A stretch of 64,000 bases of DNA from a virus, in IMG/VR virus record IMGVR_UViG_3300026488_000015, positions 82,526 to 146,525 of that record. One strand, given 5' to 3'. Below the pieces are notes generated by a model. That model was not told the DNA's origin. It made no database searches and worked only from the letters and a program-made list of their open reading frames with translations. This document shows, piece by piece, positions 5,324 to 62,086 of this stretch (positions are counted from its first letter, which is position 1; every line of letters starts with the position of its first letter). A program made the translations under genes and the position numbers.

Positions 5324-5881
5324 CTACTTTATTTCCGAAAGAATGACTTCATTTACTTTTTTATTGTACTCTGAATCAGTCTTGTAGTGTTTTGCTACTA
5401 TAAATCCATTATAACGGTGTTCTGTCGTGATAGTAAATTTTGAAACATCAGTCATCTTAGCTAATCGTTGTGCTTCTCCTTTAGGGAAGAAAAAGGTAAC
5501 AGTTTTATTGCCATCGATTACTGCATCCATATGATACTGTGAACCCATCTGATACACTTTTACTTTTGTTGGTGTATGTACTTCTGTGTAATGCTCAAAA
5601 ATAAAGATTCTAGGAAATAGATAGAATGCTATAGTAAGCACAACAAATGCTATAGATTGCATCATCAATGCTAAAGCCATATTCGCCTGTTCATCTGTTA
5701 TATCAAGCATTTGAGCAAAGATAAAGAAAAATGTAGCAAATACCCAAAACACTAAATTAAATCCAATTACACTTAACCAGATACTATACGAATCACCTAA
5801 ATAAATGTATATACCAAGACCTACGAACCATATCAACGGGTACAGACCAAATCTGTATAAATTTTCTATATTTGTTTTCAT
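5324..5881 (-). CDS. Membrane protein, about three transmembrane segments (185 aa)
   Basis: Hydrophobic segments lie near residues 13-30, 35-58 and 68-92, followed by a soluble beta-rich C-terminal domain of about 85 residues containing KTVTFFFPKGEAQRLAK. No family recognised. The ATG overlaps the stop of a tiny membrane gene (ATGA), so the two are coupled and may act together in the host inner membrane. Confidence 0.75.
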   Translation of the reverse strand: MKTNIENLYRFGLYPLIWFVGLGIYIYLGDSYSIWLSVIGFNLVFWVFATFFFIFAQMLDITDEQANMALALMMQSIAFVVLTIAFYLFPRIFIFEHYTEVHTPTKVKVYQMGSQYHMDAVIDGNKTVTFFFPKGEAQRLAKMTDVSKFTITTEHRYNGFIVAKHYKTDSEYNKKVNEVILSEIK

Positions 5882-5991
5882 CTTCTTCCTTTCTTCCTTT
5901 TTGTATTAGCCAATCCACAGAAGCTATTTGCTTCAATAACTATTAAGAGTATCATTAATCCAGTAAATATCGAACCTTCTAATAATGACAT
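5878..5991 (-). CDS. Tiny single-pass membrane protein (37 aa)
   Basis: MSLLEGSIFTGLMILLIVIE is a single transmembrane helix followed by a basic tail (KRKKGRR). It sits exactly between two genes: the upstream stop ends one base before its ATG and its own stop overlaps the next ATG. That packing is the main evidence that it is expressed. Confidence 0.65.
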   Translation of the reverse strand: MSLLEGSIFTGLMILLIVIEANSFCGLANTKRKKGRR

Positions 5992-6189
5992 TTAGTGCTC
6001 TCTTATTTCGAAACCAGGGTTAATGACTCTCATTGCATCTTGTAAGTTATCCAGGATTGCTGCTTTTTTATTAACTTCTGTTACTAAGGCCAAATCTCTT
6101 GGTGAACTGAAACCGTCTTCAGGTACCATATTTTTAATCTCGTGATATAGTTCATTAATCAATCTATAAAGTCGTTGTTCTGTATCCAT
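5992..6189 (-). CDS. Hypothetical helical protein (65 aa)
   Basis: Small two-helix acidic protein (TEQRLYRLINELYHEIKNM, then a second helix at 35-55). First gene after its own promoter, with GATAGAAAG as ribosome-binding region. Not recognised. Confidence 0.7.
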   Translation of the reverse strand: MDTEQRLYRLINELYHEIKNMVPEDGFSSPRDLALVTEVNKKAAILDNLQDAMRVINPGFEIREH

Positions 6190-17759: not shown

Positions 17760-18584
17760 ATGGGATTTACAATCAACACAAACAATAGCGCAAACTTCGC
17801 ACTATTATATGGTAGACAAACACAACAAAAAATAGATAGTTCTTTAGAAAAACTATCAACTGGTCTTAGAATTAACAGAGCAGCAGATGATGCAGCAGGA
17901 ATGGCTATTGCTAATCAGTTAAGAAGCCAATCACAAGGTTTAATTCAAGGTAACAAAAATGCACAAGATGCTATTGGTCTTGTTAAAATAGCAGATGGCG
18001 CAATGGATGAGTATCAAAAAATTCTCGTGACTGCTAGAGATAAATCAGTTCAGGCAGCAAGTGATACGAATTCACCTGAAGCAAGAGCAGTACTCGAAGA
18101 GGAAGTTAAGCAATTACTTCAACAAGCAGATGATATTGCCACTACGACATCATTCAATGGTATTAATCTTTTAGATGGTACATTTACTAGCAAGAAATTT
18201 CAAGTAGGTTCAGAATCTGGCCAAACTATTAGTATGAGTATAGCTAATACTGATATTGCTTCTCAAAATATTGCTGACGCTGATATTGATTTAACTACTC
18301 AAGCAGGTGCTGATGCAGCAATCGTTTCATTGGATGCAGCGATAAAAAGTATTGATGCCGTTAGAAGTGGAATAGGTTCGACTCAAAATGCACTAGAAAG
18401 TAGAGTCCGTGTTAATGAGGCAACTGCCGCAAATGTTATGGCCGCAGAGAGCGCGATTCGTGAAGTTGATTATGCTGCAGAACAAACAGCATTAAATACA
18501 AACACAATCAAGTTACAAGCTAATACATTCGCTTTAGGTAAAGCATTAGAGAACCAACAAATGATTCTTAGTCTGCTTAGATAG
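17760..18584 (+). CDS. Phage-encoded flagellin
   Basis: The 274-residue protein has both terminal flagellin domains and almost nothing between them. Residues 1-140 carry LEKLSTGLRINRAADDAAGM, NAQDAIGLVKIADGAMDEYQ and TTSFNGINLLDG; residues about 190-274 carry ALESRVRVNEATAANVMAAE and end LENQQMILSLLR. These form the coiled D0/D1 core that polymerises; the surface D2/D3 domains are absent. Closest in style to short flagellins of Arcobacter/Sulfurimonas-like bacteria. A strong ACGGAGGTG ribosome site precedes the ATG. It lies among phage genes and converges on a FliS-like gene. Flagellin in a lytic phage genome is highly unusual: it could alter the host filament, act as a decoy, or be recent host DNA. 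Confidence 0.95.
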   Translation: MGFTINTNNSANFALLYGRQTQQKIDSSLEKLSTGLRINRAADDAAGMAIANQLRSQSQGLIQGNKNAQDAIGLVKIADGAMDEYQKILVTARDKSVQAASDTNSPEARAVLEEEVKQLLQQADDIATTTSFNGINLLDGTFTSKKFQVGSESGQTISMSIANTDIASQNIADADIDLTTQAGADAAIVSLDAAIKSIDAVRSGIGSTQNALESRVRVNEATAANVMAAESAIREVDYAAEQTALNTNTIKLQANTFALGKALENQQMILSLLR

Positions 18585-18936
18585 GGTTTAGGAAAACATC
18601 AACTATGATGATAACCAATCCATAATAGTGTAGAGACTCTTCTTTGGTCTCTGCAATATTACCTTTACCAATAAACAATCCAATATCATTTAAAATATCA
18701 AATAGACCTAGACCTTCAGGTTTAGTATAATCAATCATATCAGACATCAAACGAATACTTTCAAGCATCTTAGATGTAGTTTCAAATTTAATTTTTTGTT
18801 GGGATAATGCTGGTTCTTTTTTCTTTTTTTCTGTTTCTATCTTTATAAGTACAAGAGTTTTTTTCTTTAATAAAGTATAAAATGTTTTTAAGAATTCTTC
18901 TTTACCTAAGACAGCATTTTGTTCGTAAGGGTTCAT
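18577..18936 (-). CDS. FliS-like flagellin chaperone candidate (119 aa)
   Basis: Opens MNPYEQNAVLGKEEFLKTFY, like the NAYxxNxV start of FliS. Residues about 60-95 (ESIRLMSDMIDYTKPEGLG, then DILNDIGLFIGKGNI) align by eye with the FliS ELINILDY...GLYTHQIKLLTMANI stretch. The length (119 aa) fits FliS. FliS binds the C-terminal helix of flagellin in the cytosol and prevents early assembly. The gene converges on flagellin, with 3' ends overlapping by 8 bases. The region at residues 28-50 is Lys-rich and divergent; the assignment is inference, supported mainly by the neighbourhood. Confidence 0.45.
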   Translation of the reverse strand: MNPYEQNAVLGKEEFLKTFYTLLKKKTLVLIKIETEKKKKEPALSQQKIKFETTSKMLESIRLMSDMIDYTKPEGLGLFDILNDIGLFIGKGNIAETKEESLHYYGLVIIIVDVFLNPI

Positions 18937-28835: not shown

Positions 28836-29345
28836 TTAAAGAAGGTCTGCGTATTTACCTAGTTTTCGTTTTAGTTTTCTGTTATTGAATTCATCAAATG
28901 CTTCTAATAGGTTTTCATCGTAATCTAAGGCGTTCTTTTTGAGTTCTTTTTGTACTCGTTTGTCGCCGAACATTATTTGGACTGTTTTTCTGTATTCATC
29001 ATATTCTTTACCTTTTCTTGATGTCATTGACCAAGCCATTCTAAGCCCTCTACATCTACCGCTAATAGGGTTTACTCTCTTATCAGTTAATAAAAGTTTC
29101 ACTATTTCCGAATAACCATTACTAGCCGACATCTGAAGTGATTCATTACCATTATCCGATGGGTCTACTCTCTTATCTTTCATTAAAAGTTTTACTGTCC
29201 CAAGATAACCGTGCGTACTAGCTTCTCTGATTAACCAGTTAGCATTTTCAGTTGGGTCTGCTTTTAGTCCAAGTTGTTTTACTATATAAGATTCAAAATC
29301 TTTCTCGTTTCTTGTGTATTTGTAAGCATCTACGAAACTAGCCAT
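28836..29345 (-). CDS. Ankyrin-repeat-like protein with KLGKYADLL C-terminus (169 aa)
   Basis: Two or three ankyrin-like units: LIREASTHGYLGTVKLLMKD with KRVDPSD, then SLQMSASNGYSEIVKLLLTD with KRVNP. This DxRVDPSxN...A..G..E.VKLLL pattern is common in giant-virus ankyrins. Ends RKLGKYADLL, shared with three other proteins here. Third gene of a late operon from TATAAATA at 30655. A virion protein with a C-terminal sorting tag is possible. Confidence 0.8.
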   Translation of the reverse strand: MASFVDAYKYTRNEKDFESYIVKQLGLKADPTENANWLIREASTHGYLGTVKLLMKDKRVDPSDNGNESLQMSASNGYSEIVKLLLTDKRVNPISGRCRGLRMAWSMTSRKGKEYDEYRKTVQIMFGDKRVQKELKKNALDYDENLLEAFDEFNNRKLKRKLGKYADLL

Positions 29346-29668
29346 TAGTCATCTCCGAGTAAATCGGCATATTTACCAATCTTTTTGTTCTTGTATTTTC
29401 TTATTCTATTTCTGATTTCGGGAACTGCATCATCTAAGAACTTATCGATATTATCTGGTAATTTGATTTCATTATCGATGAACATCTGAACCATCTTAGT
29501 GTCTTTGTTCTTGATAGCCATACCAAAAGGTGAATCGTTGAAATTATTTGTTAATTCGACCCATTCAGGAACTTTAATCTTTAATATTTTCTTGGCTTTA
29601 TCGTAATCACTTGATAGCACAACATCGATTAATATCTGATTTAGTGCTTTCTCTTCTATTGTCCCCAT
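29345..29668 (-). CDS. Ankyrin-like protein with KIGKYADLLGDD C-terminus (107 aa)
   Basis: One ankyrin-like unit (FGMAIKNKDTKMVQMFIDNE) framed by helices; ends KKIGKYADLLGDD. One-base overlaps with both neighbours, so all three KYADLL genes form one coupled unit. Confidence 0.78.
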   Translation of the reverse strand: MGTIEEKALNQILIDVVLSSDYDKAKKILKIKVPEWVELTNNFNDSPFGMAIKNKDTKMVQMFIDNEIKLPDNIDKFLDDAVPEIRNRIRKYKNKKIGKYADLLGDD

Positions 29669-30633
29669 TAGTCATCTCCTAGTAAGTCTGCATACTTACC
29701 TAATTTTTTATTATTCGATTTCTTTGCTATCAGTTTTATTGCTTTATCGTACCATTTCCACTTCGGTTTAGCTAGTAACATTTCAAGAACTCTATCATCT
29801 TTCATAAGTATTTTAGCTATCCCTGGTGTTACTGAATTCATATCATCAACGATACCACTTGGTACTTGAAATTTATCATCAGCTAATAATATTCTAACCA
29901 TTTCTAAATTCCCAGCCATTGCTGCAGTACCTAGAGCACCATAATCTAAATTAGAAATATTTACATCCACATCGTATAACCACTTAGCGATTTTCTCTCT
30001 TTTGTATTCGAGTGCATTAGCAAACCAATAATTTTCATCCTTGAATAAGCTATAACCACCTCTTATAGCAGTTGTCATTAATTTCAATAGTACATCATCA
30101 TCTTTCTCTGTTTTAAATTTCATAATGTACATTTCGCCCTCTTCATCTAAAATGATATAAGGATATTCCACTGATTCGACCACTATTCTATCCTGCTTTT
30201 GTCTCGATTTTGTGAAGTAAAATTCCGGGTCTTTCTCTCTACCTTGGATAAATGTGATGATGGTTATGTAACCATTTTCTTTGTTGATTATCATCATATC
30301 GTAACGAGCTTTAGAATTTTTGTAAACGATTATTGTTTTGTTGCCTGGTACAAGCTCACCAGAATCGAAAACTTTTTTAATCTTCTTTAGAATTAATTCA
30401 TCTTTGATACCGTGGTCACGAGCTTTCTTCTCACCGTCACGCTTTTGAGTGCTATGAGAAGATTTATAGACATCTATATTATCTACTGTCCCGACTTTTA
30501 AAGAGTCGCTAGGTCGTTTTGCTTTGATTTTTTGGGGAGTCGGGGTAGGTTGCTCAGTCTTATCAGATGCTTTCTTCTTTATTTTAAGTGCTTCTGTTAT
30601 TGAGTCGTTAAGTATTTTATTGAATGTTTGCAT
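29668..30633 (-). CDS. Late protein with leader-like N-terminus, ankyrin-like part and KLGKYADLLGDD C-terminus (321 aa)
   Basis: Front MQTFNKILNDSITEALKIKK resembles the capsid-targeting leader. Residues 80-190 form a beta-rich domain (RYDMMIINKENGYITIITFI). Residues 195-290 contain ankyrin-like units (LGTAAMAGNLEMVRILLADD). The end is KKLGKYADLLGDD. Exact TATAAATA is 22 bases upstream. It is the only protein here with both the leader-like start and the KYADLL end, linking the two signals. Confidence 0.8.
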   Translation of the reverse strand: MQTFNKILNDSITEALKIKKKASDKTEQPTPTPQKIKAKRPSDSLKVGTVDNIDVYKSSHSTQKRDGEKKARDHGIKDELILKKIKKVFDSGELVPGNKTIIVYKNSKARYDMMIINKENGYITIITFIQGREKDPEFYFTKSRQKQDRIVVESVEYPYIILDEEGEMYIMKFKTEKDDDVLLKLMTTAIRGGYSLFKDENYWFANALEYKREKIAKWLYDVDVNISNLDYGALGTAAMAGNLEMVRILLADDKFQVPSGIVDDMNSVTPGIAKILMKDDRVLEMLLAKPKWKWYDKAIKLIAKKSNNKKLGKYADLLGDD

Positions 30634-37195: not shown

Positions 37196-37702
37196 TTAAT
37201 CTAGTAAATCAGCATATTTACCTAGTTTCTTTAATTTCACGCCTTCTAAAAACTCTTTGATGAATAGCTTGAAGTTATTGGAATCCCATCCACTGTATTG
37301 CATAGCTTGTTCTAATATTTTTGGGTTGCTTAGAGCTATTTCAGCTGTCTTACGGAATTTGTCGTGGTGAAGGTTAGCAATAGCGTGTCTATTCAATTCG
37401 TACATCAAATCATATTTACCAGTGAATTCTTTTATTCTTGGTAAAATAATCTCTAATGCCTCATAATTACCTAGTTCAATTGCTGTTTTTATAATCTGAT
37501 TGAAATTTTGTGAGTACTCATAACCTTTAAGATTACTGACCAGTTTAACTGCCTTTACATTATTCGTTTGGATTATTCTGCGTATAACCTCATCTTCATA
37601 AGGTATTTTGTTTTTTAAAAGTCCCTTGATTTCTTTATCAAGATTCCTTCCACCTGGTCCCATTGTATCTAAATCCCACCAATCTGTTACTTTTTCGTTC
37701 AT
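37196..37702 (-). CDS. Late ankyrin-like protein with KLGKYADLLD C-terminus (168 aa)
   Basis: ATG 37702 has ACGAGGTG upstream; a GTG nine bases earlier is less likely. Helical repeats (IIQTNNVKAVKLVSNLKGYE; AIELGNYEALEIILPRIKEF) resemble degenerate ankyrins. The end KLKKLGKYADLLD matches the three genes at 28.8-30.6 kb, 6.5 kb away. Exact TATAAATA lies 21 bases before the ATG. Confidence 0.8.
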   Translation of the reverse strand: MNEKVTDWWDLDTMGPGGRNLDKEIKGLLKNKIPYEDEVIRRIIQTNNVKAVKLVSNLKGYEYSQNFNQIIKTAIELGNYEALEIILPRIKEFTGKYDLMYELNRHAIANLHHDKFRKTAEIALSNPKILEQAMQYSGWDSNNFKLFIKEFLEGVKLKKLGKYADLLD

Positions 37703-37723
37703 ATCCAACACCTCGTTTAATAA

Positions 37724-46953: not shown

Positions 46954-47202
46954 TTAAAGAAATAAATGAGGGTGTTTTTCTTGTGTTTTGTATATAGAAT
47001 CATTCAGCACATAGACTAATGAATATTCTTCGCCTATGCTGATTTCTTCGATGTCGCAATATTGGAGGTATTCATTCTCGTTCTTGATGGCATATTTACA
47101 GTATTCGATGACCTCTTCATAGGAACCACCGAAATAACCAGCTTCTATCTTATAACATTGGTAATGAGTTGTTAAATCTGATAATGTAGTGATTTCTGAC
47201 AT
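46954..47202 (-). CDS. Hypothetical protein with HPHLFL C-terminal tag (82 aa)
   Basis: Tyr/Glu-rich (HYQCYKIEAGYFGGSYEEVI), with a beta strand EEYSLVYVLNDS and the end YKTQEKHPHLFL. Tag codons CAC CCT CAT TTA TTT CTT. An 18-bp inverted repeat lies directly upstream of its start. Confidence 0.8.
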   Translation of the reverse strand: MSEITTLSDLTTHYQCYKIEAGYFGGSYEEVIEYCKYAIKNENEYLQYCDIEEISIGEEYSLVYVLNDSIYKTQEKHPHLFL

Positions 47203-47208
47203 AAGTTT

Positions 47209-47280
47209 CCTTAAGGTAACATAAAAGCGGTAATAGTAACACCTTTATGTTTATATAGTCTTTTTTATGTTACCTTAAGG
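47209..47280. repeat. Perfect 18-bp inverted repeat between two tag genes
   Basis: CCTTAAGGTAACATAAAA (47209-47226) and its exact reverse complement (47263-47280) enclose 36 bases. The ends CCTTAAGG are themselves palindromic, and TTAAGGTAACATAAA resembles the upstream half of the common promoter on both strands. The inner part holds TATATAA. It would make a long stem in the leader of the gene at 46954-47202. No gene fits inside. It could be a processing site, a terminator-antiterminator or a small palindromic insert. Confidence 0.8.
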
Positions 47281-47284
47281 TTGG

Positions 47285-47515
47285 CTATAAAAATAGATGA
47301 GGTTCTTCATTAAATACTCTCTCGTAATCTTCTTTGAGAAATGAATATGAGATTTCCCATATACCACCTTCTTTACCATTAGATACACGATTCGTACATT
47401 TAATGTGCTCACACCAGGGATGTGCTTCGATAAGATTTTCGGGTAAGCACATACTCCGTTTATCTGAAGAGATAACAACGGTTATTTCCTCTAGTAGAGG
47501 CTGTTTACCAGGCAT
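47285..47515 (-). CDS. Hypothetical protein with EPHLFL C-terminal tag (76 aa)
   Basis: MPGKQPLLEEITVVISSDKR, a Cys-containing middle (HPWCEHIKCTNRVSNG) and FLKEDYERVFNEEPHLFL. The strict tag is preceded by an acidic helix. Overlaps the phosphatase gene by 11 bases. Confidence 0.8.
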   Translation of the reverse strand: MPGKQPLLEEITVVISSDKRSMCLPENLIEAHPWCEHIKCTNRVSNGKEGGIWEISYSFLKEDYERVFNEEPHLFL

Positions 47516-48305
47516 TAGTTCTACGGACTTGTTTTTTGGTTTCTATTTTGTCTATAAGGACCTCTTGGTATATTTTCATACTAGGGTATTCTAAGCAAGT
47601 AAGCTTACCAAAAGGTTCACCAGGGAAACAAGAACCAGTATCAATACTAGCATAATTCTCATCGATGACGCAACCAGTGAAAGGGTCAGCTTCAGGATGT
47701 TTATTCCATACATTATGACCAGAAACGCCGAAAAAACGCATAGAACCTTCTTTCTGTTTGTTTCTACCCCAAGTGAAATAGCCATACATTTGCTCTATTT
47801 CAAGGTTGTAGGAATCTCTCTGCTTTTGGTCAAGGTCTCTCCACTCTTTTGCTAGTTCTTTCTTGTAGAATAAAAATCTACTGAACCAATCAACCGAAGG
47901 TGCGTGTGAAACCAATAAATCTTTATGACCAGGAATCTCGTAGGTTTTATACAAAGGTAAATCATCCATCCATTTAATGTCATCATCGTATTGTGCTTCT
48001 TTACCTTTGTATGAATCTAGTGTAGTATCTCCACCATTACCAACCCAGCAAGAATAATTATTATAATAATCCCCGTTCTTGTATTCTAACGAACCATCGA
48101 CCATTAGCTCTTCGTGGTTACCTTTCACTACATCATAACCTTGTTCACGAACGAAAGCTACCAGTCCTGAGCTGTCTGGTCCTCTGTCGATTAAATCTCC
48201 TAACAGAATAATGTTAGAGGAATTCGCATCATCAGGCAATTGAGCTATGAGTGCTTTTAATGTAGCAATACAGCCGTGAGTGTCGCCGATTATATATTTT
48301 TTCAT
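47505..48305 (-). CDS. PPP-family serine/threonine protein phosphatase (PrpA/lambda PP-like)
   Basis: Canonical motifs: GDTHG (residues 7-11), GDLIDRGPDS (36-45), GNHEEL (61-66), a later SHAPS near 130 and SGHNVWNK near 195. These bind two metals and dephosphorylate protein Ser/Thr (or Ap4A in related enzymes). Length 266 aa is a little above lambda PP (221). An exact TATAAATA is 17 bases upstream, so late expression is possible. Confidence 0.9.
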   Translation of the reverse strand: MKKYIIGDTHGCIATLKALIAQLPDDANSSNIILLGDLIDRGPDSSGLVAFVREQGYDVVKGNHEELMVDGSLEYKNGDYYNNYSCWVGNGGDTTLDSYKGKEAQYDDDIKWMDDLPLYKTYEIPGHKDLLVSHAPSVDWFSRFLFYKKELAKEWRDLDQKQRDSYNLEIEQMYGYFTWGRNKQKEGSMRFFGVSGHNVWNKHPEADPFTGCVIDENYASIDTGSCFPGEPFGKLTCLEYPSMKIYQEVLIDKIETKKQVRRTNAW

Positions 48306-48321
48306 ATTTTTCCTTTATTTT

Positions 48322-48329
48322 TATTTATA
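48322..48329 (-). promoter_or_regulatory. Candidate T4-type late promoter TATAAATA
   Basis: Exact octamer 17 bases before the phosphatase ATG, overlapping the end of the upstream gene. The spacing is at the short end of the range seen at other copies, so it is slightly less certain. Confidence 0.65.
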
Positions 48330-48693
48330 GAAACCAGTGTGTTCTATCACTAAGCAGTTCGTGCTTAGTGGTAAGAGAAATTCTCGTGAAGAAAAGTTCT
48401 TTTTTGTTCTTTATAGAACTTATCATATGCTCTGAAAGAATCATATCTTTGTCTAAAATAAAGTTCAAAGGTGCAATCACAATCATACAATATTCTCTAC
48501 CTGATTCATCGGTATGAAATAATCTGCTACTGTAAATCCCATAGATGGCGTGTTCTCTACCATCTGATTCATAATCTTGGAGTTTTTTGAACTCCTTTAT
48601 GTTTATTCTGACTATACAGTTTTGTTCATAGTTGTTTTGTTCTTCGAGTTTTTTAAGTTCTTTTGGGCTCATATCATATACTATCATCCTCAT
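48325..48693 (-). CDS. Hypothetical protein with THWFL C-terminal ending (122 aa)
   Basis: ATG 48693 gives the ATGA overlap with the upstream gene. MRMIVYDMSPKELKKLEEQN; mixed alpha/beta body; ends KHELLSDRTHWFL, a tag variant keeping His and the aromatic-Leu end. Unknown. Confidence 0.73.
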   Translation of the reverse strand: MRMIVYDMSPKELKKLEEQNNYEQNCIVRINIKEFKKLQDYESDGREHAIYGIYSSRLFHTDESGREYCMIVIAPLNFILDKDMILSEHMISSIKNKKELFFTRISLTTKHELLSDRTHWFL

Positions 48694-49025
48694 AAGAAAA
48701 CATCCGGGCAATGATGTAGAGCTAATGAGATAATATCTATCTCGTGCTCTCCGTCTTCCCAAATAAAGAGAACATTTTCGTATGTATCTGTTGAGTCTTT
48801 TTGTAGATGAGCCTTACAAGCTGACCGCACACACTCTTTAAATGTTTTATCTGTAATATGTGTGTATCTATCGGGTTTTTGTTCTCTGTGAAGGCTATGA
48901 GGTGTTATTGCTATTTGATGGACGCAATATAATCCATCCTGGTCAAACCAGACATCAAATGTCTCGTTACTTTTGGAGGTCGTAGTCGCCAAAAGAATAC
49001 CCACCACAAAAATCGATAAAATCAT
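48690..49025 (-). CDS. Hypothetical protein with CPDVFL ending, possible signal peptide (111 aa)
   Basis: MILSIFVVGILLATTTSKSN looks like a signal peptide, but this start overlaps the upstream gene by 59 bases and has no clear ribosome site; a later TTG/GTG start would remove the signal. The end IISLALHHCPDVFL matches the PD-type tag. Start unresolved. Confidence 0.55.
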   Translation of the reverse strand: MILSIFVVGILLATTTSKSNETFDVWFDQDGLYCVHQIAITPHSLHREQKPDRYTHITDKTFKECVRSACKAHLQKDSTDTYENVLFIWEDGEHEIDIISLALHHCPDVFL

Positions 49026-49182
49026 ACTCGCACATATCTACAAACAATTCAAGCAATACACCTAATTCTTTTTCTGAACAATTTAATTCTTGTCTGGTAT
49101 CTTTCCATCGTACTGTATAAACTGTATCATCATAGCTGATAATAAATTTCGTGTCAATCTTTAATCTACCTAATTCTGTCAT
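48967..49182 (-). CDS. Hypothetical protein (71 aa)
   Basis: Beta front (LKIDTKFIISYDDTVYTVRW), helix, and aromatic tail (DFCGGYSFGDYDLQK). One base after the membrane gene stop. Unknown. Confidence 0.7.
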   Translation of the reverse strand: MTELGRLKIDTKFIISYDDTVYTVRWKDTRQELNCSEKELGVLLELFVDMCEYDFIDFCGGYSFGDYDLQK

Positions 49183-49569
49183 CTAGTTTCCTTTGTAATA
49201 TTTATCTAAATTATCTGGTGAATCTTTAATTACTTTTGTTCTTAGAAATACCACTACACATAATCCAACAAGCGATAACGCCATTATTGCTGTACCAACT
49301 GCTAAATCTGTTTTAAGCATTAACCAACCAACAAATAATTCTCTGAAACCAAAGAATATAGCACCATCAACGATGTAACGAATTTTCATTCTACTGTGAG
49401 GTTTAAAAATATATTCATAAATTGTTCTTACTACTTCCATAATAATAAGAAATGTAAATGAATAAATTAAAACATTAGCGTGTCCACCTGGTACAAAAAA
49501 CCCTATAATAAATAGTATTGCAGTGAATAAAAATATCATCCACTCTGGTAGTTCTTTCATTATTGCCAT
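49183..49569 (-). CDS. Membrane protein, about four transmembrane segments (128 aa)
   Basis: Hydrophobic helices near residues 9-24, 28-46, 66-84 and 90-108, with a lysine-rich cytosolic tail. FVPGGHANVL between the first two is notable. Family unknown; not holin-like by length and position. Confidence 0.74.
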   Translation of the reverse strand: MAIMKELPEWMIFLFTAILFIIGFFVPGGHANVLIYSFTFLIIMEVVRTIYEYIFKPHSRMKIRYIVDGAIFFGFRELFVGWLMLKTDLAVGTAIMALSLVGLCVVVFLRTKVIKDSPDNLDKYYKGN

Positions 49570-49578
49570 ATATTTTCC

Positions 49579-50067
49579 TTATTGTTTCATTGCTCTTAGA
49601 AATAGAGCATCTTCTGATTTTGTATTCTTCTCTGATTCGTGAGAAATTTTCTTCATTTTGTTCTTATTTAGTTCTCTATCGCTCATTGCCTTCATCGTGT
49701 AGGAATTAACAATATTGATACGATTGCCTACTTTAATAAAACATCTACTTAAATCCATTACCTTAGGCCCACGGAATACAGTAATGACAAAAATTCTGTT
49801 ATTGCCGTCTAAATCCACTAGCACACCAAAAGGTCTTTCTTTATCGCTTTTAAATGTGATTACAGTAGCACCTTTATTTCTAAAAGATGTAAGGCCGTTA
49901 TATAGAGCCTTCGTTAAAATCTGTTTGTATCTCGATTCATCGATATGCTGACCTCTGTGGTATTTCGATGTGCCTTTAGCCATTTCTCTATTTTCAAATA
50001 AGTGCACAGCTGTCTCAACTGTATATACTTTATTATCGAATCGAATATTATCTAATTTATAGCTCAT
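49579..50067 (-). CDS. Hypothetical protein (162 aa)
   Basis: ATG 50067 follows GGGGTACAAG and lies just before the upstream stop. Residues 20-60 are basic helices (REMAKGTSKYHRGQHIDESR), 70-105 is a beta core (TVITFKSDKERPFGVLVDLD, then NRIFVITVFRGP). It recalls phage DUF-type beta-barrel proteins; not identified. Confidence 0.72.
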   Translation of the reverse strand: MSYKLDNIRFDNKVYTVETAVHLFENREMAKGTSKYHRGQHIDESRYKQILTKALYNGLTSFRNKGATVITFKSDKERPFGVLVDLDGNNRIFVITVFRGPKVMDLSRCFIKVGNRINIVNSYTMKAMSDRELNKNKMKKISHESEKNTKSEDALFLRAMKQ

Positions 50068-50203
50068 CTTGTACCCCTTCATCTAAAATACCAGAAAGGT
50101 CTACTTTCTCTGGTTCTTTCTTTTCTTGTTCTATTCTAAGTTTTTCTAAGCATTCATCAGTCAAATTCAACTGAATAGTTTCTTCTTTAAAAAAGTTTTC
50201 CAT
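50057..50203 (-). CDS. Small acidic protein (48 aa)
   Basis: MENFFKEETIQLNLTDECLE and 28 residues more, strongly acidic with a coiled coil. Own promoter 17 bases upstream; overlaps the next gene by 11 bases. Confidence 0.66.
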   Translation of the reverse strand: MENFFKEETIQLNLTDECLEKLRIEQEKKEPEKVDLSGILDEGVQDEL

Positions 50204-50219
50204 CTTATATCCTTTGTTT

Positions 50220-50244
50220 CTTTATATGTAATATTATAACATAA
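50220..50244 (-). promoter_or_regulatory. Recurrent TATAAT promoter
   Basis: Canonical copy ahead of the small acidic protein gene. Confidence 0.8.
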
Positions 50245-50261
50245 AAAGACTTAAAGTTTAC

Positions 50262-50522
50262 TTAAACGAATAAGTGAGGCGACTCTTCTCTAATTTCATC
50301 GATTTCATCTATATAGAATGAAAATTCGCAATCGTAGGTCTCACCATTCTGGTTCTCATCAATCGTGTGCTCGAAGCAATCTAAGTGCTCAAGATAAGGG
50401 TACTCTTTGAGTAATTCCATCACACAGCCCTTAAGCGTGTTACTGTAAGACACTAGGTCATTAACTGATGCTTTTAGCTTAAAAGTTTTTGTTTCGTATG
50501 TCCAGTCTGCTTCAATTTTCAT
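50262..50522 (-). CDS. Hypothetical protein with SPHLFV C-terminal tag (86 aa)
   Basis: Single small alpha/beta unit (KTFKLKASVNDLVSYSNTLK), with an acidic helix IDEIDEIREESPHLFV at the end. Val replaces the last Leu. Directly downstream of the SmpB gene row. Confidence 0.8.
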   Translation of the reverse strand: MKIEADWTYETKTFKLKASVNDLVSYSNTLKGCVMELLKEYPYLEHLDCFEHTIDENQNGETYDCEFSFYIDEIDEIREESPHLFV

Positions 50523-50523
50523 T

Positions 50524-50688
50524 TTATTTACCTTTAACTTCGTGTAATCTATCAGATATAAATGTACAAGGTTTATCTTCTTTAGTTTCGGGTTGCATCA
50601 CTAGGCTTTCTAAATCTATAAGTTTTTTGTTGTCATATACTCTTCGTATAGGTCTGCAAGTTTTATATGTCTTTTTTGTGCTTCTCAT
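50524..50688 (-). CDS. Small basic protein (54 aa)
   Basis: MRSTKKTYKTCRPIRRVYDN and 34 residues more. Starts right after the SmpB stop and ends just before the next ATG, so it is coupled to SmpB; the basic front might bind RNA. Unknown. Confidence 0.64.
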   Translation of the reverse strand: MRSTKKTYKTCRPIRRVYDNKKLIDLESLVMQPETKEDKPCTFISDRLHEVKGK

Positions 50689-51135
50689 CTAGTAATCCTT
50701 CAATGCTCTAGCTGTGTCGATATTTTGCTGTTTCTCTTTAAGCGAATTTCGTTTATCGTAATCTCTTTTACCACGACCAACAGCTATCTCAAGCTTAATC
50801 GAATCTGAAGAATCAGGTTGGAAAATCTTCAAAGGGACGATAGTGATACCGTTTTCTTGTGTAGCCACATCGAGCTCTCTGATTTCTTTCTTTGTGAGTA
50901 ATAATTTTCGTGGTCTTACCTCATCGAAATGACCATAAGCAAAATTCTCTGGTTTAGAAATGTGTGCTTGCATTAAGAATGCTTCACCGTTCGAAATCTT
51001 TACATAAGCTTCTTTCAATGATATTCTACTATCACGAATTGCTTTAACCTCAGGTCCTTCTAATACCATCCCAGCAATGTAGTGGTCTGTTAAATGATAA
51101 GAGTGTGTTGCTTTTCTGTTTCTATTGTATTCCAT
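50689..51135 (-). CDS. smpB: SmpB, tmRNA-binding protein
   Basis: Full-length homologue (148 aa; bacterial SmpB is about 150-160). RKATHSYHLTDHYIAGMVLE, GPEVKAIRDSRISLKEAYVK, RPRKLLLTKKEIREL and VGRGKRDYDKRN correspond in order to the conserved SmpB segments; the KKxYDKR-like basic turn and C-terminal tail enter the ribosome. SmpB delivers tmRNA to stalled ribosomes, which adds the ssrA tag. A phage-borne SmpB is rare. No tmRNA gene was seen in the window, so it would act on host or distant phage tmRNA. It lies among PHLFL-tagged genes. Confidence 0.92.
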   Translation of the reverse strand: MEYNRNRKATHSYHLTDHYIAGMVLEGPEVKAIRDSRISLKEAYVKISNGEAFLMQAHISKPENFAYGHFDEVRPRKLLLTKKEIRELDVATQENGITIVPLKIFQPDSSDSIKLEIAVGRGKRDYDKRNSLKEKQQNIDTARALKDY

Positions 51136-51147
51136 CTTCTCTTTCCT

Positions 51148-51414
51148 TTATAAAAATAAATGAGGGCTTTTGTCTACAAGTTCTTGTAGTTCTTCTTTTC
51201 CTACAACATTAAAATCTCTCATTGAGATAAACCACGAGCGCTTCTTTAATGGAGTGAAATATATATCTAAATCGACATCATTATATCCACCTCTTATGCT
51301 ATTCACTAAACATATAATAGATTTATTGTTTTCATCTAAGAATGCGATATATTTACATTTTTTGAATTTTTTTATATTATATTCTTCAGGACTTAAAGTT
51401 TTTCTTCTTTCCAT
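51148..51414 (-). CDS. Hypothetical protein with SPHLFL C-terminal tag (88 aa)
   Basis: Basic N-terminus (MERRKTLSPEEYNIKKFKKC), beta core and FNVVGKEELQELVDKSPHLFL. Strict tag. Immediately upstream of SmpB in the transcript. Confidence 0.8.
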   Translation of the reverse strand: MERRKTLSPEEYNIKKFKKCKYIAFLDENNKSIICLVNSIRGGYNDVDLDIYFTPLKKRSWFISMRDFNVVGKEELQELVDKSPHLFL

Positions 51415-51424
51415 TATATAGCCT

Positions 51425-51637
51425 TTATAAAAATAAATGCGGAGTATCTACTAACAGACGAGTTTTGTTTATACAATGATTTGAAGATTTCTTCTTATTA
51501 TAACCACTAGAATTCTTTACAGTAATAATATTTCCTCTATCAGGAACTTTATGCACAACACCTTCATCCATTTCACCTGATGTACTGAATATTACAACAT
51601 CACCTACATTGATTTCCTGATTAAATCTATCTAACAT
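51425..51637 (-). CDS. Hypothetical KOW/SH3-like protein with TPHLFL C-terminal tag (70 aa)
   Basis: FNQEINVGDVVIFSTSGEMD, then GVVHKVPDRGNIITVKN, is a compact barrel of the kind in 40682-40981 and 51953-52219; ends TRLLVDTPHLFL. The smallest strict tag protein, so the tag is about a tenth of its length. Confidence 0.8.
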   Translation of the reverse strand: MLDRFNQEINVGDVVIFSTSGEMDEGVVHKVPDRGNIITVKNSSGYNKKKSSNHCINKTRLLVDTPHLFL

Positions 51638-51894
51638 TACGAAACCAATGAATAAGTTTGACCAGCATATCCGTTAGCAGCAGAATTATTAACAGCGTTG
51701 TTAAGATTCTTTACTAATGTTTTAACTGATTTCGGATAACGATTGATTTTTGAATTACCTTCTTCGTGTGAGTAACTAGCACCACATTCTAAAGTGTAAG
51801 AGTAAGCTTGAACTAATTCTTCTAATGTACCAGTTTGCTCATATCTACGGTCTTTGTTGTGATTGTAATTCTCGATTGTGTATATCTTAGCCAT
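51637..51894 (-). CDS. Conserved T4-like hypothetical protein (85 aa)
   Basis: YTIENYNHNKDRRYEQTGTL, LEELVQAYSYTLECG and VKTLVKNLNNAVNNSAANGY recall a small protein repeated in many T4-like phages; its function is unknown there too. One-base overlap with a tag gene and own promoter. Confidence 0.75.
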   Translation of the reverse strand: MAKIYTIENYNHNKDRRYEQTGTLEELVQAYSYTLECGASYSHEEGNSKINRYPKSVKTLVKNLNNAVNNSAANGYAGQTYSLVS

Positions 51895-51910
51895 TTTAAG
51901 TCCTTTTATT

Positions 51911-51935
51911 TGTTATATGTAATATTATAACATAA
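51911..51935 (-). promoter_or_regulatory. Recurrent TATAAT promoter
   Basis: Copy with ATATAACA at its 3' side; ahead of the gene at 51894, driving the SmpB row. Confidence 0.78.
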
Positions 51936-51952
51936 AAGACCTTAAAGCTTTA

Positions 51953-52219
51953 TTAAAGCAGTAAATCAGGTCTATTTTCATAGATTTCTTCGAGGACTAT
52001 AAATCTTTCGGGAATTTTTACTGTCGTAGTTGCATCGTAACCATCAAATTTTGAAGCTTGTATCTCAATACCATTCTTATTGAACCCTAAAATTGTACAC
52101 TTTCTACCGACATTTCCTTTAGCAGAATTCATATAGAAACACCTTTGACCGACCTTTAGCTCTTGACCAAGATAGTCATATAATGGTTCAGGTAAAATCT
52201 CTGTATCTAATTCGTTCAT
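51953..52219 (-). CDS. Hypothetical KOW/SH3-like protein with RPDLLL ending (88 aa)
   Basis: YDYLGQELKVGQRCFYMNSA, then RKCTILGFNKNGIEIQAS, is a small barrel; ends LEEIYENRPDLLL, the PD-type tag. Just downstream of the FliM-motif gene. Confidence 0.77.
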   Translation of the reverse strand: MNELDTEILPEPLYDYLGQELKVGQRCFYMNSAKGNVGRKCTILGFNKNGIEIQASKFDGYDATTTVKIPERFIVLEEIYENRPDLLL

Positions 52220-52220
52220 C

Positions 52221-52727
52221 TTATAATCCTAGGTGTGGTTTTTCTGTAATGAGTTTTGTATATCGTTCTGTGTCTATAACCATTGTATCATAATGTTCTT
52301 TTGTTCTCTCTCTAAAAGTCTCTGAATTAGAGAAAGCAAATACGAAAGCCTCTTCTTCTAACACAAAAGAGTTATCATATAATAGCTTAATAGAATATTC
52401 AGCATATTCTTCTTTCTTAGCGGAAAAAGTATATGCTGAATTCCATTGTTTTTCGCTAATATTGTACTCTTCTATCTCAATATGAATATAAGGTCTACCC
52501 CAAACTATATTTTTTACTCTATGTTTTATTACAGATGCATTATAGGCATTATCACTATACAAGTGCACTACATAAAATTCATCATCAGGAACAACTTCAA
52601 ATACACTAAGATGCTGTTTTATTTCTTCTAGTGTTAATGGGATAGAATGCGTAGTAATAAGTATCTCTGGTTCATCAACTGCATCAAGCAGGGCATCTAT
52701 CTCTGATTGAGATAATATACTTGCCAT
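52221..52727 (-). CDS. Protein with FliM N-terminal (CheY-binding) motif and KPHLGL tag (168 aa)
   Basis: Begins MASILSQSEIDALLDAVDEP. LSQxEIDALL is the signature of the flagellar switch protein FliM N-peptide, which captures phosphorylated CheY, and occurs in FliY/FliN of Campylobacterota. None of the FliM middle or SPOA domains follow; the other 145 residues are an unrelated beta-rich body ending RYTKLITEKPHLGL. It could act as a decoy that binds CheY-P and changes swimming. Motif identity is seen; function is inferred. Three bases downstream of ThyX. Confidence 0.75.
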   Translation of the reverse strand: MASILSQSEIDALLDAVDEPEILITTHSIPLTLEEIKQHLSVFEVVPDDEFYVVHLYSDNAYNASVIKHRVKNIVWGRPYIHIEIEEYNISEKQWNSAYTFSAKKEEYAEYSIKLLYDNSFVLEEEAFVFAFSNSETFRERTKEHYDTMVIDTERYTKLITEKPHLGL

Positions 52728-52730
52728 ATA

Positions 52731-53603
52731 TTATCTCTCGAAGTTTTTCAAGATAAGCTTAAGGTATTTGTCTGGCGTTTTTGCTTTCATTTCTTGTGCT
52801 AATTTCTCGATTTGAAACCAAGCTGCACCAGAATCTCTAAGACCTAAAAAGTTTTTGAAGCTTCTAAGATTTATTGTCATAACAGCAGAAACCTTAAAAT
52901 TATCTGAAATGATATATTTGAAGCTATCACCAACATTTCTTTTGTCTTTTGAATTAAGGAGTTTCACAAATGTATGATACTCTGATTCAGCTGGAATTCT
53001 TTCTCTTACTGATTTCGCTACAGAAAGTTCTAACCATTTTGTTTGACCAATTTTGTCATAGTGATATTTCATTTTGTCAAAGATACCGTGTAGTTCAATT
53101 CTATTCATTTTTTCATCTGCAACCACAAACATATCGTATCTAAGAACCTCATCTACGAATGTTTTACTAGGTGCTTGTAATAGAGCACAAGCAGTAAAAG
53201 CATTAATAAGAGAACTCATAGTATATCGTGTCGATTGAACCGAATAACTAGCAATTCTATGCCTAGCTAGTTCTTGTAGAACGCCTCTTGAAAAATCTGT
53301 AAGTAAAAATGTAAGTACTGAATGTTCTAATGTTGATTCGTGAAAATGTACAAATGATAATGATTGAAGCAATTCCGATTCTTCCACTGTCTGAAGACCT
53401 TTAGATAGAGTGCCTATAAGAATTTCATCATTTCTTTTAACGCTATCATTTAATGCCTTGATACAGATATTCTCTGATTTATCAAAGCTATTGTAGCATT
53501 GTCTTGCAGCATATTCGGATTGACCGATTCCATTATCAGCAATTAAGTGTGCTGTTGGGTAGATGTAGTCGATTCCGTTGTAGTCATAAGTTTTTTGTGT
53601 CAT
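52731..53603 (-). CDS. thyX: Flavin-dependent thymidylate synthase
   Basis: Makes dTMP from dUMP with FAD and folate. The ThyX motif RHRIASYSVQSTRY (residues 114-127) is complete (RHRxxSxxxxSxRY). SFVHFHESTLEHSVLTFLLT provides the conserved H..LEH helix, and LRSFKNFLGLRDSGAAWFQI near 250-270 the C-terminal signature. Length 290 aa is standard. Works with NrdAB and MazG-like genes to build DNA precursors. Confidence 0.95.
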   Translation of the reverse strand: MTQKTYDYNGIDYIYPTAHLIADNGIGQSEYAARQCYNSFDKSENICIKALNDSVKRNDEILIGTLSKGLQTVEESELLQSLSFVHFHESTLEHSVLTFLLTDFSRGVLQELARHRIASYSVQSTRYTMSSLINAFTACALLQAPSKTFVDEVLRYDMFVVADEKMNRIELHGIFDKMKYHYDKIGQTKWLELSVAKSVRERIPAESEYHTFVKLLNSKDKRNVGDSFKYIISDNFKVSAVMTINLRSFKNFLGLRDSGAAWFQIEKLAQEMKAKTPDKYLKLILKNFER

Positions 53604-53642: not shown

Positions 53643-54518
53643 TTAAATTTCTGAGGTGTCAAATTCTTGACCTTTTTTGACCAGTCCAGCGAAACCATCT
53701 TCTTGAACCATTTGATTTACTTCATTGTATGTTTTACTTCCTAACATATAATGATACAGATACATTTTTGCTCTTGTATGGCTATCAAGTTCTAATAGTT
53801 GTCTATACTGAGCGTGAACACTATTTGGATACTCAGCGAACTCGCAATCGTGAAATATAATATCACTTTGTTGAAAATATGTAAGCATCTGATTAGGCGC
53901 GAACTGTGAGTCTCCACTAATAAAAACAGTCTTATCATCATCTTCAAACATTAAACCATAGCTAGGTACAATAGAACGATTATCTACAATATGAACTGTT
54001 TGAATGGGTCTGATTTCTGTACCGTAGAACTCAAAAGTATCATTATTACTCATATACTCTGTATCAAAATATGTCTCTAATGTATTTGTTTGACCTTGAA
54101 TAGATTCTAAACCACCTCTCCAAGTTTTGTCCCAACCATTAAATAAGATAGATTTATGAGCATATAGATTAGGTCTCATTGAACCGAATTCAGTCTTACC
54201 GAAATTAAATACTTCAAAATATGTCTTGAAAGCAATATACTCGATACCACCAGCGTGGTCTCCGTGCAGATGTGAAATGTAAATACTATCTAAATCTTGA
54301 GGTTTTAAACCTGCTTCATCAAGAGCATCAGGAATCGTTGTACCTACATCATAAAGAAGATGTTTTGTTTCTATATTTCTTTGAATCATTCCAGGCATAC
54401 CTGCTGGAGTGTCAATCTTTTTTCTTACTTCAGTATCTTTACTAAGTAAAATATTACTCTGATAGTTTTCTTTCCCTAATACGAAAGCACTACCACTTCC
54501 TAAAAATTTAATCTTCAT
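53643..54518 (-). CDS. Metallo-beta-lactamase-fold hydrolase (RNase Z/phosphodiesterase-like)
   Basis: MKIKFLGSGSAFVLGKENYQ start, HLHGDHAGGIEY (His83, His85, Asp87, His88 as metal ligands), FISGDSQFAP near 205 (Asp ligand) and SHTRAKMYLYHY near 245 (late His). This layout is the RNase Z/phosphodiesterase branch. Phage Apyc1 anti-Pycsar enzymes share this fold and degrade cCMP/cUMP, so an anti-defence role is possible; tRNA processing or a nucleotide phosphodiester are alternatives. 291 aa. Confidence 0.82.
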   Translation of the reverse strand: MKIKFLGSGSAFVLGKENYQSNILLSKDTEVRKKIDTPAGMPGMIQRNIETKHLLYDVGTTIPDALDEAGLKPQDLDSIYISHLHGDHAGGIEYIAFKTYFEVFNFGKTEFGSMRPNLYAHKSILFNGWDKTWRGGLESIQGQTNTLETYFDTEYMSNNDTFEFYGTEIRPIQTVHIVDNRSIVPSYGLMFEDDDKTVFISGDSQFAPNQMLTYFQQSDIIFHDCEFAEYPNSVHAQYRQLLELDSHTRAKMYLYHYMLGSKTYNEVNQMVQEDGFAGLVKKGQEFDTSEI

Positions 54519-61427: not shown

Positions 61428-61568
61428 CTAATCTTTCTCGATTGTCGTGTCACCGTTCGTACTTTTGTTGTTTTTGATTTCTGTCTTCACTTCATCAGCA
61501 GCAGACACGAATGCTGTGATAACGATAAACATAACCAAAAATAATATAACCATAAAAAATACTAGCAT
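61428..61568 (-). CDS. Small membrane or secreted protein (46 aa)
   Basis: MLVFFMVILFLVMFIVITAF, then SAADE: a hydrophobic helix ending in a possible signal-peptidase site, and a 20-residue polar tail. The ATG overlaps the GGDEF stop, so it is coupled to that gene and could anchor or modulate it. Confidence 0.66.
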   Translation of the reverse strand: MLVFFMVILFLVMFIVITAFVSAADEVKTEIKNNKSTNGDTTIEKD

Positions 61569-62086
61569 CTTTCAATTTCTCCTCTCTTGTTTTTCTTGTT
61601 TACTAATATACCGTCTGCTAGATTAAACATATCTTCTATATTTGTGAGCTTGTCTACAATAGTGCTTGACAACCCGTATTCAGAAGATGATATAGCTTCT
61701 AGCTTATCAGAAGTATCTTGCGTTTCTACGCCTTGTTTAAGGATGAAAAATTCATCACCTGATGTCCTATATATTTCAGAACAAGGGAAGGTCGATTGTA
61801 GTTCGCTGGCTACATCCTTGATGAACTCATCACCCGCTAGAAAACCTCTTTCTCTGTTGATAGCGTGTAAACCATTCAAATCAACAATACCTAACATAAA
61901 ATCACGACTAAAATACACATACTCGTGCCACAGCTCATCCAATCTACGATTAAAATCCAAACGACCTTTGAGGTTAGTCATTGAACAATATTTGTATTCT
62001 TTAATCTGAATCTTAAGCTTTTCATTCTCTGCCTGTAGCCTATGCATTTCGTCCATCATTTCTTCGTTAGTCATTTCGCTATTCAT
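61562..62086 (-). CDS. GGDEF-domain protein (diguanylate cyclase candidate)
   Basis: Residues 1-30 form a coiled coil, which usually dimerises these enzymes. MTNLKGRLDFNRRL (about 36-49) is the DPLTGLxNRR start of the domain, VDLNGLHAINRERGFLAGDE (near 70-90) the Mg/GTP-binding segment, and RTSGDEFFIL (near 109) the active loop, SGDEF instead of GGDEF; SGDEF can be active. No RxxD inhibitory site is seen five residues upstream. It would make c-di-GMP, which slows swimming. Phage-encoded GGDEF proteins are rare. Ends in a short basic tail; 174 aa. Confidence 0.85.
   Translation of the reverse strand: MNSEMTNEEMMDEMHRLQAENEKLKIQIKEYKYCSMTNLKGRLDFNRRLDELWHEYVYFSRDFMLGIVDLNGLHAINRERGFLAGDEFIKDVASELQSTFPCSEIYRTSGDEFFILKQGVETQDTSDKLEAISSSEYGLSSTIVDKLTNIEDMFNLADGILVNKKNKRGEIERC

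Follow-up and report, generated by a model that had tools for sequence, protein, structure and literature searches.

A FliM-like N-terminal peptide on a small phage protein as a candidate ligand of host CheY

The window analysed here is a stretch of 64,000 nucleotides (positions 82,526 to 146,525) of the virus record IMGVR_UViG_3300026488_000015, whose 146,525 bases are referred to below as the 146.5-kb record and represent the whole phage record. It carries a gene for a small protein, called here the window protein, whose first residues resemble the N-terminus of FliM. We consider it moderately probable, from sequence comparison, that the first ~19 residues mimic the FliM N-peptide of the host and that the protein binds host CheY, probably competes with FliM and biases the motor. 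The N-terminus reads MASILSQSEIDALLDAVDEPE... (also given as MASILSQSEIDALLDAVDEPEILITTHS...) and the protein ends with ITEKPHLGL. The sequence-only reading had described a protein of 168 residues with a beginning of the form LSQxEIDALL, and this description holds; the gene is an open reading frame (ORF) of the minus strand with an ATG start.

The N-terminal peptide in hosts and in other phages

Residues 1-19 of the window protein, MASILSQSEIDALLDAVDE, share 16 of 19 identical residues with FliM of Campylobacterota such as MADILSQDEIDALLDAVDD or MADILSQEEIDALLDVVDE; a further form of the host FliM N-terminus is MADILSQEEIDALLEVVDE. As in the FliM/FliY N-terminal peptide, the segment M-A-x-I-L-S-Q-x-E-I-D-A-L-L lies at the extreme N-terminus and is followed by a host-like D-x-V-D-E continuation, whereas the rest of the window protein, which is small and comes from a phage, has no relation to FliM. 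A Pfam search at E up to 10 gives no family for the window protein, the C-terminal SpoA domain (PF01052) included, and no FliM domain, including the PF02154 middle domain, is found across the 146.5-kb record, which bears out the earlier claim that all other FliM domains are lacking. PHROG 31201 aligns to window residues 1-15 only and PHROG 8774 to residues 1-43 only, tblastn with the first 43 residues gives 12 weak matches, every one in a Campylobacter phage, and the 21-residue N-peptide has no match among PDB sequences.

Anchored at a start, M-x-x-x-L-S-Q-x-E-I-D-x-L-L has a single match in the window, and 100 dinucleotide shuffles yield none; the unanchored motif with one mismatch allowed again finds this ORF as its sole occurrence in the window. 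Among 121 Campylobacterota genomes, 103 contain exactly one copy of M-x-x-I-L-S/T-Q-x-E-I-D-x-L-L (reversed control, 0) and 115 have detectable FliM domains; all 30 pattern loci that were fetched encode full-length FliM. The narrower form starting with MA makes up 102 of the 103 matches and is absent from 200 Pseudomonadota genomes. Judged from these genomes, the peptide marks FliM in hosts. The host of the window's phage is likely a member of Campylobacterota, because the phage SmpB and the N-terminal half of the phage flagellin resemble those of this group: SmpB is closest to Campylobacterota (up to 50% identity, versus 38-45% in four other genomes tried) and flagellin residues 1-164 have their nearest matches in Campylobacterales (51-52% identity).

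PHROG 8774 is a family of hypothetical proteins that start with MAxILSQEEIDxLL and are carried by all 44 matching Campylobacter phage records of INPHARED (Fletchervirus, Firehammervirus and DA10), with an alignment that begins at residue 1 in each record. Its members, which are annotated as hypothetical only, include NCTC12673 product 149, CP220 CPT_0071 and CP21_042. The family shares with the window protein an N-peptide of this form on a small phage protein and a Campylobacterota host (a likely one for the window's phage), but differs in its body, which is modelled as all-helical (predicted local distance difference test, pLDDT, 71; no PDB match), and in having no PHLxL tag at its end. This helical body has no counterpart in the window protein, where the match ends at residue 43 and no body match is found. 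A comparison of eight representative members finds no variation at 12 of the first 15 positions and, in a body of about 114 positions, at 16 (Fisher p about 4e-7, indicative only as the sequences are related), which makes the peptide the most conserved part of the family. The peptide codons differ synonymously between the genera, so it is the peptide that is under selection. The sequence-only reading had named a retained body with a lost motif as a pattern that would refute it, and this family has the opposite one. The proposal of FliM-peptide mimicry has good support from the Campylobacterota form of the peptide, from its unrelated bodies and from this conservation, as measured in the Campylobacter phage family.

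Small proteins with such a peptide were also found by scanning IMG/VR with start-anchored patterns and judging the matches by translation. They occur in L003 (a 290-kb record), L012 (114 kb) and L006/L015 (153 and 48 kb), while L230, L090 and L056 (94, 199 and 17 kb) have the form MSDGS/T-[LF]-[ST]-Q-x-E-I-D. In an all-against-all BLASTP comparison, nine phage proteins match one another through the N-peptide, and when the first 18 residues are removed only two pairs stay related, CP220/NCTC12673 and L090/L230. A search for relatives of the L012 protein gave that protein alone. In L056 (1-291) the FliM/FliY-like peptide sits on a protein with a HEIIH (HExxH) metallopeptidase-like motif, encoded on a short phage contig.

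Three of these phages encode chemotaxis or motor proteins of their own. The L003 phage has a single-domain CheY of 124 residues (L240 1492-1866; PF00072, 7e-25), which shares 58-62% identity with Campylobacterota CheY and 47% with that of Shewanella and Pseudomonas, and keeps the acidic pair and the phospho-Asp, Ser/Thr, Tyr and Lys positions. A CheW-like protein (L012 3247-3657, E=6.6e-9) is encoded by the L012 phage, whose peptide gene lies about 2 kb away, and in the L006 phage a divergent FliM-like protein of 291 residues (L006 4965-5840), with its own peptide VLSQEEVTALL, is encoded directly behind the peptide gene; neither has a match in INPHARED. Several other candidates were set aside. 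An apparent FliM in the L012 phage is a weak match below the cut-off and the ORF reads as a GPGSGKS P-loop protein; L105 was not counted, as a full FliM lies in its record, which is probably of bacterial origin; L019 and L079 are both FliM-like proteins and not mimics; and matches to a loose ATGG pattern are mostly internal or unrelated reading frames. From the retained cases, we lean slightly towards the view that phages of flagellated bacteria have repeatedly evolved or captured the CheY-docking peptide of FliM/FliY on unrelated bodies as a means of hijacking CheY against chemotaxis, in some cases alongside a CheY, CheW or FliM of their own, which would constitute a viral class of steering control.

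Proposed engagement of CheY and alternative explanations

The modest affinity of the FliM peptide is one of several points that weigh against the mimicry reading, since titration of CheY would then need high expression. For the window protein, no body homologues are found in viral_contigs (IMG/VR) or INPHARED, and a single-sequence AlphaFold model is unusable (pLDDT 39). Its only body relative is a paralogue of the same phage, at record position 5880-6107 (ORF L025 1498-1914), which matches residues 98-168 with 35% identity (E=1.3e-4) and has no N-peptide; a paralogue of this kind suggests a modular origin of the window protein. In the Campylobacter phages, the match is split in two in about 16 of the 44 records. 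Four broken loci were read, those of F352, 1PH123, PC5 and one copy in CPt10, and each has an intact peptide just behind which the frame is lost. The gp4 head-completion protein was found in 39 Campylobacter records, of which 32 have the peptide gene and seven, all Fletchervirus (the F357 group, of which F357 itself was inspected), do not, so the gene is accessory and dispensable.

EIDALL at the N-terminus of FliM/FliY is the established docking site of phosphorylated CheY (CheY-P) (PMC9126983), and the affinity of CheY for the FliM N-peptide rises about 20-fold on phosphorylation (PMC7355467). Because of this established biochemistry, we infer that the phage peptide protein binds host CheY. 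Binding would take place at the alpha4-alpha5 groove used by FliM, with a preference for CheY-P, and bound CheY would send no signal to the motor, because every part of FliM that forms the C-ring is absent from the phage protein. In the simplest case, the protein would compete with FliM, and possibly also with CheZ, for CheY-P, and flagellar switching and chemotaxis would be biased in the infected cell. The mechanism first proposed for this gene, in which a soluble protein traps CheY-P and so locks the motor direction, is plausible. The direction of the motor effect and the benefit to the phage are guesses; the phage might gain from cells that swim steadily or reverse less often, or from control over superinfection that depends on the flagellum.

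A different role for the same docking is that of an adaptor, in which the peptide holds CheY for an action of the variable body or of the C-terminal tag, such as shielding CheY-P from dephosphorylation or delivering CheY to the phage ClpP. The constancy of the peptide on diverse bodies fits this explanation, as do the HExxH-containing protein of L056 and the presence of ClpP and SmpB genes in a phage whose peptide protein bears the PHLGL tag. However, 22 other proteins without the peptide have the same tag, which is thus not specific for CheY, the window protein has no effector domain recognisable in Pfam, and several of the Campylobacter copies break off shortly after the peptide; an adaptor is therefore rather unlikely. 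It is less likely still that the partner is not host CheY but a CheY-like protein of the phage or a different response regulator of the host. The L003 phage, whose CheY has intact signalling residues, would suit such a partner, but a search for response regulators finds none in the phage of the window and none in the Campylobacter phages that were examined, and CheY is the sole established ligand of the peptide.

The peptide could also be a remnant of the 5' end of a fliM gene that was once captured, without a function today. Capture of fliM does happen, as the divergent FliM beside the peptide protein of the L006 phage indicates, and some Campylobacter copies are frameshifted, but in the Campylobacter phages the residues of the peptide are preserved although its codons change synonymously, and the body diverges; in addition, the peptide recurs on unrelated bodies, which makes a vestige very improbable. 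The least probable explanation is chance resemblance, for which the shortness of the motif speaks, together with the mostly internal or unrelated matches that start-anchored scans of IMG/VR give at other spacings. Against it stand the shuffles, a match that reaches residue 19, the N-terminal position, the host-specific form and the recurrence.

Genomic setting, flagellar genes and the C-terminal tag

The record has tail sheath, baseplate wedge and endolysin genes, and its source is a tailed phage with a contractile tail. The gene of the window protein belongs to a dense minus-strand array, in which it lies 3 bases after thyX and immediately ahead of an ORF for a protein of 88 residues (Table 1). 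Two genes from it, at 53643-54518, is encoded a metallo-beta-lactamase fold protein that matches the anti-Pycsar protein Apyc1 (PF23023, E=5e-23).

Table 1. Position and support of the peptide gene, its parts and related features in the window
Feature	Position	Strand	Support or remark
FliM-peptide protein gene, 168 residues	52221..52727	-	ATG-start ORF; no body homologue in viral_contigs or INPHARED
Putative FliM N-peptide mimic, residues 1-19 (MASILSQSEIDALLDAVDE)	52671..52727	-	host FliM match, shuffles, recurrence at other phage N-termini
C-terminal third, residues 98-168	52224..52436	-	common to same-phage paralogue without N-peptide
PHLGL tag, C-terminal, P[HD]xx[LIVF] class	52224..52238	-	1 of 23 tagged small proteins
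thyX, upstream neighbour	52731..53603	-	PF02511, E=1.2e-28
88-residue protein ending PDLLL, downstream neighbour	51953..52219	-	ORF, no Pfam match
Flagellin, phage-encoded	17760..18584	+	Flagellin_N 3e-42, Flagellin_C 1.5e-14
GGDEF-domain protein, SGDEF motif	61562..62086	-	PF00990, E=8e-14

The sequence-only reading had linked the peptide with flagellin, FliS-like and GGDEF genes in a programme that manipulates swimming. This programme has partial support: the flagellin and GGDEF genes are confirmed, but the "FliS-like" ORF (18577-18936) has no Pfam match. The phage flagellin has intact N and C domains, and similar genes are present in few annotated phage records.

The PHLGL tag, which had also been pointed out, is real. 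Twenty-three small minus-strand proteins, encoded at 46954-52727 of the window and by further ORFs across the record, end with P[HD]xx[LIVF], mostly PHLFL. The codons of the tag vary synonymously among these ORFs, so the tag is a feature of the protein and is ruled out as a DNA or promoter element; it is possibly a degron or a targeting signal, and nothing in the analysis connects it to motility. Near L003, 12 ORFs have endings of the form P-x-x-x-[LIVF], and the L003 peptide protein is one of them. SmpB and ClpP are encoded by the window's phage (50689-51135 and 60726-61367), and searches of the record for transfer-messenger RNA (tmRNA) and for tRNA genes gave no match. An element similar to TATGTTATAATA(T/C)TACATATAA, which is probably a phage promoter, recurs after several tagged ORFs (~51915-51950 and similar sites). 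A separate run of proteins, at 28836-30633 and 37196-37711, shares a C-terminal KLGKYADLL, and one of them has ankyrin repeats.

Related systems and meaning for phage biology

FlaGrab (Gp047) of phage NCTC 12673 is a Campylobacter phage protein that acts on the flagellar system of the host (PMC4690887, PMC7099621), as the peptide proteins would. It binds flagellar glycans, whereas the window protein is proposed to act intracellularly on chemotaxis signalling. Another comparison is with CheY-like motor regulators that respond to cyclic dimeric GMP, which we take to be the Cle proteins of Caulobacter. These are also non-canonical modulators of the CheY-FliM interface (PMC5677366), but they are cellular proteins on the CheY side, while the window protein is viral and would mimic the FliM side. 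The literature searched describes neither a FliM-like peptide in a phage nor a phage protein aimed at chemotaxis signalling, and none of the latter kind is known to us. The N-peptide proteins point to an undescribed viral way to tamper with bacterial steering.

Aflagellate pseudaminic-acid mutants allow adsorption of phage NCTC 12673 but are poorly infected by it, and in motA and motB mutants essentially no infection takes place (PMC8540345), while Campylobacter cells in the carrier state are non-motile (PMC3971406). The presence of the peptide family in cultured phages such as NCTC12673 makes the idea directly testable, and the peptide would be a natural tool for perturbing CheY. If the proposed function is true, viruses would control the steering of their hosts from inside the cell, which could be relevant to the carrier state with its non-motile cells and to the continued need of Campylobacter phages for a working motor once they have adsorbed.
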